A stretch of 37,553 nt of DNA from positions 1-37,553 of the forward strand of contig JAKPUX010000352.1 of NCBI GenBank assembly GCA_029554865.1, written 5' to 3'. The notes under the pieces are model-generated. The model did no database searches. It saw only the letters and a program-made list of their open reading frames with translations, and had not been told where the DNA came from. The stretch is from a bacterium (GTDB lineage: Bacteria; Zhuqueibacterota; Zhuqueibacteria; Residuimicrobiales; Residuimicrobiaceae). Every line of letters starts with the position of its first letter. Position 1 is the first letter of the stretch. Of this stretch, positions 33,540-36,884 are shown piece after piece. The position numbers and the translations under genes were made by a program.

Positions 33540-34037
33540 ACTGGGATTCTCCTTTGATAAATAGATATTAGCTCATATAATTACGAATATTTTTACAAAA
33601 AATCAAGCATTAATTTTCCCTTAAGCGCTCCGACGATCATTCCAGCCTTTCTCTCCGTCCGTCTACCTCTTCGAGGCGGGAGGCTTTTGCTGTGGCTCTC
33701 CCCTCCAGAAAAAAGGAAAATTTGCTATTGCAAATCAGCGCGCTTTTACGGACATTTAGTGGCGGAGTGATGTGGATAACAGAATGTGGATAACTTTTAC
33801 ATGCATCAATCCGATTGGCAGCCCTGATGCCACTTTCCCGCCGCTTGTTCACAATCTGTCATCCACATTAATCACAAGACATTATAATTATTATTGATAT
33901 CATCTATTATTTTCCGTTTGTTCATGTGGATAACCCTGTTCATAATGTGGATAAGTTGATTTATATCCTTTGCTGGGATGTGACGGAGAGGTTCGGGCAA
34001 TATCTTGACATTTACCCCTCTTTCTACAGGAGCAGTA
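33540..34037. other. oriC: Origin region, upstream part (rpmH-dnaA gap)
   Basis: A gap of about 500 bases without genes. Perfect DnaA boxes (TGTGGATAA, the reverse of TTATCCACA) lie at 33771-33779, 33785-33793, 33925-33933 and 33946-33954. One-mismatch boxes are at 33845-33853 (TTGTTCACA), 33859-33867 (TCATCCACA), 33868-33876 (TTAATCACA) and 33937-33945. An AT-rich stretch at 33878-33913 lies between boxes of opposite orientation. The rpmH and dnaA promoters must also be here. The 33600-33760 part holds nothing I can identify. Confidence 0.88.
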
Positions 34038-35390
34038 ATGTATCAGAATCATCATGAAGTATGGGACAAGGTGTTGGCCATTCTTAAAGACGAGGTCCAT
34101 CCCAATACCTTGCTCACCTGGTTCAAGCCGATTCAGCCCATCAAGCTGGACGACAAGGCCTTAACCATTCAGGTTCCCAACCAGTTCTCTTATGAATGGA
34201 TCGAGCAGCAGTATGGGGCGATGATGAGTCGCGCCCTCTCCCAGGTGATGGGCAACGGCTTCAAGCTGGCCTATTCCATCCGCATGGAGGCGCCCCTGCC
34301 CGCGGATCTGATTCCGCCGACGCCGACGAAATCCCCCCTCCCTGTCGCCAGCACGCATGCGGACAATCTGAATGTCCGCTACTGCTTCGACAGCTACGTC
34401 GAGGGCGAATGCAACAAGTTTGCCAAGGCGGCTGCCCTGGCGGTGGCCAAATCACCCGGCACAACCACCTTCAATCCTCTCGTCGTTTATGGCGGTGTGG
34501 GTTTGGGCAAAACCCACCTTATTCAGGCGATTGGTAATTACGCCAAGGAGCATAACCAATCCATCCGCGTTCTCTATGTCGACAGTGAGCGCTTCACCGC
34601 CGATTTCATCAATTCGATCCAGAAAAACAAGACCACGGAATTCAGCGGCCTCTACCGCAATGTTGATATTCTCATGATCGATGATATCCAGTTCTTTGGC
34701 AACAAGGAACGTACACAGGACGAGTTTTTTCACACCTTTAATGCCCTGCACCAGAAGGGCAAGCAGATCATCCTCTCCTCCGACCGTCCGCCCAAGGAAC
34801 TTCAGGGCATGGAGGAGCGCTTGAAATCCCGTTTTCAATGGGGACTGGTGGTGGACATTCAGGCCCCCGATCTTGAGACCCGGCAGGCCATCCTGCAGAA
34901 AAAGGCAGAAGAGAGTTCCATCGATCTTCCCCCTGAAATTTTCCATTTTATCGCCACCCACATCACCTCCAATATCCGCGAACTGGAGGGGGCGATGATT
35001 CGTCTGCTGGCTTTTGCCTCGCTCAACGGCATTGATATCACCCTGGAAGTTGCGAAAAAAGTGCTGCGCGATGTCTGCATCAGTAAAACCAAGGCCATCA
35101 GTATCGAATACATTCAAAAAGTGACGGCTCAGCACTTTTCCTTTCCCGACGATCTCCTGCGCTCCAAAACCCGCAAAAAGGAGATTGCCCAGGCCCGGCA
35201 GATCTGCATGTATCTGTGCAAATCTCTCACCGACAGCTCGCTCAAGACCATCGGCCTCCATTTTGGTGGACGGGACCACTCTACCGTCATCCACGCCATC
35301 AACTGCACAGAGGAGCTGATGGAAACGGATGGCAAGTACAGGGAAAACGTTGAGGCGATCAAAAACCAAATCGAAATTTCCCAGCTTTGA
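34038..35390 (+). CDS. dnaA: Chromosomal replication initiator DnaA
   Basis: A 450-residue initiator. Domain I (residues 1-85) starts MYQNHHEVWDKVLAILKDEV. A short linker (domain II, about 88-112) follows. The AAA+ core has Walker A GGVGLGKTHLIQAIGNYA near 155, Walker B ILMIDDIQFFGNKERTQDEF, and an arginine-finger region after SSDRPPKEL. Domain IV ends with the DNA-binding signature FGGRDHSTVIHAINC. It binds DnaA boxes and melts the origin. I choose the ATG at 34038, five bases after AGGAG; a TTG 33 bases earlier is less likely. DnaA boxes flank the gene on both sides, so it is probably autoregulated. Confidence 0.98.
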   Translation: MYQNHHEVWDKVLAILKDEVHPNTLLTWFKPIQPIKLDDKALTIQVPNQFSYEWIEQQYGAMMSRALSQVMGNGFKLAYSIRMEAPLPADLIPPTPTKSPLPVASTHADNLNVRYCFDSYVEGECNKFAKAAALAVAKSPGTTTFNPLVVYGGVGLGKTHLIQAIGNYAKEHNQSIRVLYVDSERFTADFINSIQKNKTTEFSGLYRNVDILMIDDIQFFGNKERTQDEFFHTFNALHQKGKQIILSSDRPPKELQGMEERLKSRFQWGLVVDIQAPDLETRQAILQKKAEESSIDLPPEIFHFIATHITSNIRELEGAMIRLLAFASLNGIDITLEVAKKVLRDVCISKTKAISIEYIQKVTAQHFSFPDDLLRSKTRKKEIAQARQICMYLCKSLTDSSLKTIGLHFGGRDHSTVIHAINCTEELMETDGKYRENVEAIKNQIEISQL

Positions 35391-35723
35391 GAAGTGTGGA
35401 CAAGTTGTTAAACTGCTGTGGACAAGCCTTCGAAAATTGTGGACAAACCCCTCTCTTTCCACAGCCATTCTTTTCCTCTTGCTGAATAGTGGACAAATGG
35501 CCATTTATAAGCCTTCTGTCCACACGCCGGTGTGCATAACCCGGCTGTTTTGCAGAAACACGTTAATTCATATTTTCAAGCACAAGAGGAGATTCTCGCT
35601 CGCTGTCAAAGGGCCCTTATCCACTTATCCACGCTGCCTACTACTACAATTATCTTGATATATATTTTTTTATTATATAACTTTAGTGATAAAACGCGCC
35701 AACTTTTTTGTGAGGAGGAACCC
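35391..35723. other. oriC: Origin region, downstream part (dnaA-dnaN gap)
   Basis: A 333-base gap without genes. Variant boxes TGTGGACAA repeat at 35395-35403, 35417-35425 and 35438-35446, with AGTGGACAA at 35488-35496 and CTGTCCACA at 35516-35524. A TTATGCACA box is at 35531-35539 on the minus strand. Two tandem boxes, TTATCCACT (35617-35625) and TTATCCACG (35625-35633), end the array next to the AT-rich unwinding element. The dnaN Shine-Dalgarno GAGGAGG is at 35712-35718. Confidence 0.88.
35617..35694 (+). other. Probable DNA unwinding element with DnaA-trio motif
   Basis: Tandem DnaA boxes (TTATCCACTTATCCACG) are followed by CTGC, three CTA triplets at 35638-35646, and about 45 bases of almost pure AT. 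This is the order of the basal unwinding system known from Bacillus subtilis: boxes, GC-rich spacer, trios (3'-GAT-5' on the opposite strand), then the melted region. After the third CTA the triplets become irregular (CAA, TTA). Confidence 0.78.
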
Positions 35724-36884
35724 ATGAATTTCACCGTTTCCCAAAAAGAGTTTTTTGATGCATTACAAAAAGTGATTGGTGTTGTGCCTCCCAAAACCAC
35801 TATATCAATTCTGACCTGCATCCTGCTCGATCTGCGCAGCGGCAAGCTCTCCCTGACCGGAACCGATCTGGAAATTTCGATCACTACCACCCTGGATGTG
35901 AACAGTTCTGAGGAGGGTTCGGTAGCCATCCCGGCCAAGATTCTTGTCGAAATTGTGCGCGAGCTGCCGGACGTTCCCCTGAATATCTTTTCAGATGCGG
36001 ACAACAAGGTGACCATCAAGACGGAGAAGGGCGAGTACAAACTCTCCACTCAGCCCAAGGAGGATTTTCCCCAGATCAGCGTTGAGGAGGGTGAACTCTC
36101 CTTTCAGATGGATTCCGGGCTGCTTGGACGCATGGCGGAACAAACCATGTTCGCTGTCTCGGCCGATGAACTGCGCCCCGCACTGACGGGCATCAATATG
36201 GAACTGCTCCCCGGCGAGATCCGTTTTGTCGCCACCGACGGTCATCGCCTCGCCAAAATCACCGTCAGCAACGGCATGATCGCCGACGATGTGCGCCGCA
36301 ACCTGATCATCCCGACCAAAACCCTCCATCTTCTGCTGCGCAATTTCGAGGACGATGCCAATGTAGGCCTCCAGATTGGCGAGGATCACATTGTTTTCAC
36401 CCTCGACCGGGCGGTGGTCTATTCAAAACTCATCAGCGGAACCTACCCCAATTATGAGCGCGTCCTTCCCAAGGATAACGAATTGAGGCTGCAGATCAAC
36501 CGCGAGTTGCTGATCTCCTCCCTGCGTCGCGTCTCCATCTTTTCCAGTTCCCTGACTCATCAGGTACGTCTCATGGTCGCGGCCGAAGAAGTGACGGTCC
36601 GCTCCGAGGATATAGAATTTGGTGCGGAGGCCAAAGAGGTCATTCCCGCCTCTTTCAATGGTGAATGGCTGCAGATCGGCTATAACAGCAACTATCTGAT
36701 GGATGTGCTCCGTCATCTCGATGGGGAAGAGGTCGTTTTTGAACTCAAGGATGCCACCAGCGCAGCGATCCTCAAACCGGTCGAAAGGCGTGAGGGCGAG
36801 GAGGTGCTGATGCTGCTGATGCCCATCCGCATCAACGAAGCGAGCCAGGCACCGGCCTCCGAATCTTCCTACAGCGCCGAGTAA
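35724..36884 (+). CDS. dnaN: DNA polymerase III beta sliding clamp
   Basis: A 386-residue clamp with three repeated domains. Landmarks are LLDLRSGKLSLTGTDLEISI near 35-55, FVATDGHRLAKITV in domain 2, SGTYPNYERVLP near 235, and the C-terminal LMPIRI in the position where the family has MPMR(L), which closes the client-binding pocket. A Ser/Ala-rich tail of about 16 residues follows, slightly longer than usual. GAGGAGG lies five bases before the ATG at 35724. It clamps polymerase and other clients to DNA. It follows dnaA across the unwinding region and precedes recF by 14 bases, the conserved dnaA-dnaN-recF order. Confidence 0.98.
   Translation: MNFTVSQKEFFDALQKVIGVVPPKTTISILTCILLDLRSGKLSLTGTDLEISITTTLDVNSSEEGSVAIPAKILVEIVRELPDVPLNIFSDADNKVTIKTEKGEYKLSTQPKEDFPQISVEEGELSFQMDSGLLGRMAEQTMFAVSADELRPALTGINMELLPGEIRFVATDGHRLAKITVSNGMIADDVRRNLIIPTKTLHLLLRNFEDDANVGLQIGEDHIVFTLDRAVVYSKLISGTYPNYERVLPKDNELRLQINRELLISSLRRVSIFSSSLTHQVRLMVAAEEVTVRSEDIEFGAEAKEVIPASFNGEWLQIGYNSNYLMDVLRHLDGEEVVFELKDATSAAILKPVERREGEEVLMLLMPIRINEASQAPASESSYSAE

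Follow-up and report, generated by a model that had tools for sequence, protein, structure and literature searches.

Introduction

The locus described here most closely resembles the Basal Unwinding System (BUS), a mechanism of origin opening established in Bacillus subtilis and in Gram-negative bacteria (PMC6669920, PMC8287927, PMC10721633). In the B. subtilis model, DnaA bound to tandem DnaA boxes seeds an oligomer which captures 3′-GAT-5′ trinucleotides, the DnaA-trios (PMC6669920, PMC10721633). Predictions place BUS elements in 85% of 2070 origins, and their function has been demonstrated in three Gram-negative species; a Gram-negative BUS is already published and widespread, and is not new (PMC8287927).

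In its published definition, a BUS contains a DnaA box with at most two mismatches and, optionally, a second co-oriented box with at most four. A spacer of 0–16 bp separates the box from the first trio, which typically lies 10–13 bp from the more conserved box. At least three consecutive trios of the form 3′-NAN-5′ follow, GAT being the commonest (PMC8287927).

Here we present a locus with this organization in an uncultured bacterium. The less expected parts of the analysis are the separation of the unwinding module from dnaA in a sister family and the overlap of the module with a putative promoter.

Organism and gene context

The window, i.e. the whole stretch of DNA analysed, is an entire contig of 37.5 kb (C93) from a genome of 4.30 Mb in 408 contigs. 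Among named genomes, bacterium UBA2214 and KSB1 bacterium KLAP87 have the most similar DnaA (78–79% identity), and the organism is therefore KSB1-like and belongs to the FCB group, which bears out the earlier guess of a Gram-negative, probably FCB-group host. In the literature collection searched, no paper combined KSB1 and ‘replication origin’.

The start of recF follows dnaA and dnaN, all three on the + strand, while yidC, mnmE, mnmG, rsmG and mfd are located left of dnaA on the − strand. The gap between dnaA and dnaN (35391–35723) comprises 333 bp with 42% GC. When the DnaA of the window is aligned to B. subtilis DnaA from the cryo-EM structure of the BUS (8btg), the two residues required for this system are identical: R264, the arginine finger, and I190, the isoleucine which binds single-stranded DNA.

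Layout of the predicted unwinding module

The features of the gap and its surroundings are collected in Table 1. The two boxes of the module (35617–35633) are tandem and co-oriented, with a pitch of 8 bp and one base in common, and each carries a single mismatch. The first trio lies 4 bp from box 2 and 12 bp from box 1, and all three consecutive trios read 3′-GAT-5′. Directly after the trios, 39 of 45 positions are A or T (35646–35690; 87%). According to nearest-neighbour energies, the least stable 40-bp duplex in the whole window is found here, at 35648–35687.

Table 1. Features of the dnaA–dnaN region (positions in the window)
Feature	Position	Strand	Details
Box cluster upstream of dnaA (33771–33954), perfect boxes	33771, 33785, 33925, 33946	−	box scan
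Upstream-cluster box TCATCCACA	33859	+	box scan
dnaA, replication initiator	34038–35390	+	TIGR00362, 546 bits
Accessory inverted boxes in the gap	35395, 35417, 35438, 35531	−	one mismatch each (box scan)
Weaker accessory boxes in the gap	35455, 35516 (+); 35488 (−)	+/−	two mismatches each (box scan)
DnaA box 1 TTATCCACT	35617–35625	+	one mismatch to the consensus
DnaA box 2 TTATCCACG	35625–35633	+	one mismatch to the consensus
GC-rich spacer CTGC	35634–35637	+	4 nt
Three DnaA-trios CTA-CTA-CTA, CTACTACTA	35638–35646		5′-CTA-3′ on +, equal to 3′-GAT-5′ on −
A+T-rich unwinding element (predicted)	35647–35690		contains the least stable 40 bp
Putative FCB-type dnaN promoter CTTG-N20-TAACTTT	35654–35684	+	CTTG 35654–35657, TAACTTT 35678–35684
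dnaN ribosome-binding site AGGAGG	35713
dnaN, DNA polymerase III beta clamp	35724–36884	+	TIGR00663, 294 bits

Conservation in the phylum

Could boxes and trios simply coincide by chance within an A+T-rich gap? (CTA)3 alone does occur in 0.15% of Markov-simulated gaps. The same triplets with a box (at most two mismatches) within 16 bp are found in 0.0025% of them. Across the organism's own genome, the combined pattern has one match with zero mismatches, which is this site, and one match with three mismatches elsewhere. The chance explanation is refuted by conservation of the module over many families, with pitch and spacer fixed, and we assign it a vanishingly small probability.

This conservation was assessed in 82 genomes of the phylum. 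dnaA was located in 69 of them and a complete dnaA–dnaN gap was obtained from 60. A module pattern, defined as the 17-bp tandem box with at most three mismatches followed by CTA or TTA at 3–6 bp, occurs in 38 of the 60 gaps and in none on the reverse strand, and simulated gaps predict 0.01 per 60. Boxes, spacer and triplets are kept in all five members of the same family with a readable gap. Genome-wide, with at most two mismatches, the pattern gives 45 matches in 44 of the 82 genomes compared with 5 for the reversed pattern; a few of the 45 are evidently due to chance.

The internal geometry is constrained to different degrees. A pitch of 8 bp is the commonest among co-oriented boxes in the gaps of the phylum (27 pairs; the next commonest pitch has 6). 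In 43 modules, the four spacer positions are 66% GC compared with 35% for the gaps overall, and trio 1 is CTA or TTA in 36. The middle base is kept in 93% of these modules for trio 1, 65% for trio 2 and 47% for trio 3; strong conservation is thus limited to the first trio and declines along the run. The 8-bp pitch, the 4-bp spacer and a CTA run are also found outside the phylum, in a record titled Thermaceae (L032) and in a deltaproteobacterial locus (L076), and the geometry is therefore not special to this phylum.

The layout is absent from 22 of the 60 gaps, six of which belong to the sister family f3 discussed below. No module was located for families f18, f19, f20, f21 and f23, nor for most of f10. 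In six genomes of f18–f21 and f23 (G008–G010, G013, G015, G019), the search found none in the gap or, at two mismatches, elsewhere; the origin of these families may have diverged or moved.

GC skew in the window and in close relatives

Cumulative GC skew was measured on stretches of the relatives' genomes and on the 37.5-kb contig itself. The exact minimum lies 457 bp from the module in the closest relative (G053) and 4.8 kb from it in another member of the same family (G050). In the latter genome, mostly negative skew on the left of dnaA gives way to positive values in each 5-kb step on the right.

The contig itself, too short to serve as a skew test, has a weak skew with no minimum at the module, 2 kb beyond which it ends; a local minimum is located near 17.5 kb and a maximum near 32.5 kb. 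Around dnaA, its skew is opposite in sign to that of the relatives, being positive on the left and negative on the right. The yidC-mnmE-mnmG synteny with the relatives is conserved despite this opposite sign.

The initial annotation had listed tandem boxes, a four-base spacer, three CTA triplets and a 45-base AT tract, and had proposed an origin opening site of the B. subtilis type, to be checked by conservation in related gaps and by the position of the skew minimum. The layout is confirmed and is far beyond chance. Neither check refuted the proposal, in the family and the wider phylum for conservation and in the same-family relatives for the skew, and the proposed type of site is supported. 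Given the location in the dnaA–dnaN gap, the skew minima at this site in the two relatives and the residues kept in DnaA, we consider it very probable, judging from sequence, that the site serves as the chromosome origin's unwinding module and represents a B. subtilis-type BUS.

Separation of dnaA and module in a sister family

In f3, a sister family of the same order, the dnaA–dnaN gap measures ~80–130 bp in six measurable genomes, and a search of these six gaps found no DnaA box. The module was located elsewhere in eight f3 genomes, surrounded by further DnaA boxes (loci L178–L185), and occupies at least three distinct gene neighbourhoods. Its left neighbour is dgt in G037, G038 and G040, and an SxtJ-like gene with a carbamoyltransferase in G035, G041, G043 and G044; in G042, a TonB-dependent receptor is nearby. 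The names dgt and receptor derive from reading the sequence and from an HD-domain match.

The yidC-mnmG block could be placed relative to the module in three of these genomes, at distances of 6 kb (G038), ~8 kb (G042) and 20 kb (G044). The dnaA-dnaN-recF cluster is found 111 kb from the module in G038, 17 kb in G042 and on a separate contig in G044, and the boxes upstream of dnaA remain with dnaA. The position of the yidC-mnmG block suggests that the dnaA cluster moved away, rather than the module.

In G044, skew minimum and module are 402 bp apart. G038 has a plateau of flat skew between ~90 and 185 kb, and its module, at 174 kb, lies inside this plateau. The exact minimum lies at distances of 22 kb from the module and 133 kb from dnaA, which itself is found at 285 kb in the positive skew arm. 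Module and dnaA of G042, 17 kb apart, are too close to be resolved by skew. Where skew can tell them apart in f3, the minimum tracks the module and not dnaA, and therefore the origin appears to follow the module.

This family also informs the role of the box cluster upstream of dnaA. Since these boxes stay with dnaA in f3 and the module does not, autoregulation of dnaA is their likelier role. A search for the module layout upstream of dnaA in the genomes of the phylum gave no forward and one reverse match, nothing convincing.

A probable promoter within the A+T tract

Bacteroides promoters have a consensus composed of a TTG-type element at −33 and TAnnTTTG at −7. The motif CTTG-N20-TAnnTTT presents both elements at a fixed spacing. 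In the window, the final G of the −7 consensus is replaced by A, and the TAACTTT element ends ~40 bp 5′ of the dnaN start codon. With exactly N20, the motif is present in 21 of the 60 gaps (0.12 expected) within the last ~130 bp before dnaN, and it precedes dnaN in four f3 gaps which lack the module. We did not adopt a sigma-70 interpretation of the tract (TTGATA ... TATAAC), given how sharply the FCB-type spacing is enriched.

One may ask whether the tract is solely an unwinding element in which the match to this motif is incidental. As at known BUS sites it directly follows the trios, and no other part of the window is less stable, but the recurrence of the exact spacing, including in f3 gaps without a BUS, makes an incidental match unlikely. 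Judged by its sequence, the tract probably doubles as unwinding element and promoter of dnaN.

The opposite simplification would be that boxes and tract form merely a DnaA-regulated promoter region of dnaN, with the origin elsewhere, e.g. upstream of dnaA where four perfect boxes are located. The promoter motif within the tract is indeed strongly supported and DnaA boxes adjacent to promoters are often regulatory. However, in f3 dnaN retains the promoter motif, and boxes and trios lie together at another site, which marks the skew minimum. In G044, and less tightly in G038, this minimum tracks the module and not dnaN. In addition, the layout is essentially absent upstream of dnaA. We judge a promoter region without origin function to be very improbable.

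A model for origin opening

What DnaA does at the module, from binding and the choice of strand to melting, is inferred, as is the activity of the promoter, and a BUS at this site would operate as follows. DnaA would bind the tandem boxes as double-stranded DNA. An oligomer seeded on the boxes would then be set across the GC-rich spacer onto the 3′-GAT-5′ trios. Because these trios sit on the − strand, the oligomer would extend 3′→5′ on this strand, that is rightwards in the direction of dnaN, and melting is predicted to start at ~35638–35690. The upstream and inverted boxes could raise the local DnaA concentration or serve regulation, and the A+T tract would both unwind and supply the core of the dnaN promoter.

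The analysis adds to the range of the BUS an uncultured FCB phylum in which its geometry (8-bp box pitch, 4-bp spacer) is widely kept, and suggests that the same DNA houses the unwinding element and the promoter of dnaN. f3 represents a natural experiment in which the role of the unwinding module can be told apart from those of dnaA and dnaN. We see an even chance that BUS and box cluster in this family form a portable origin which functions without dnaA in cis, placed beside dgt, the carbamoyltransferase/SxtJ-like pair or a TonB-dependent receptor, and that melting and dnaN transcription may be coupled in the sister families, whose module overlaps the dnaN promoter.

Comparison with known origins

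The closest likeness is to the BUS of B. subtilis oriC (incC; DnaA-box 6/7 and DnaA-trios), which is also located in the dnaA–dnaN gap. Two co-oriented boxes, a short GC-rich spacer, 3′-GAT-5′ trios and an A+T tract are common to both; the comparison covered the layout of elements. Unlike the B. subtilis BUS, the window has both boxes one mismatch off and only three perfect trios, and its A+T tract carries the putative FCB-type promoter. The BUS of other phyla, including Helicobacter pylori, has the same elements, which are required there for unwinding in vitro and for H. pylori viability; the name KSB1 is absent from the main text of the paper on those elements.

The arrangement also recalls the bipartite oriC of Clostridioides difficile, where box clusters flank dnaA on both sides and where oriC2, between dnaA and dnaN, contains a trio (5′-CACCTACTACTATTACTACTATGA-3′) and an unwinding element, similar to the gap of the window (PMC7561715). 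Unlike in C. difficile, the upstream cluster of this phylum is found with dnaA even where the module is elsewhere, in f3 17–111 kb away or on a different contig, and a true bipartite origin is therefore not established in the phylum. Finally, f3 resembles Escherichia coli in that dnaA and the likely origin are separated; in three f3 genomes, this origin is found 6–20 kb from the yidC-mnmG block. In contrast to E. coli, whose BUS score is weak (PMC8287927), f3 retains a strong BUS.
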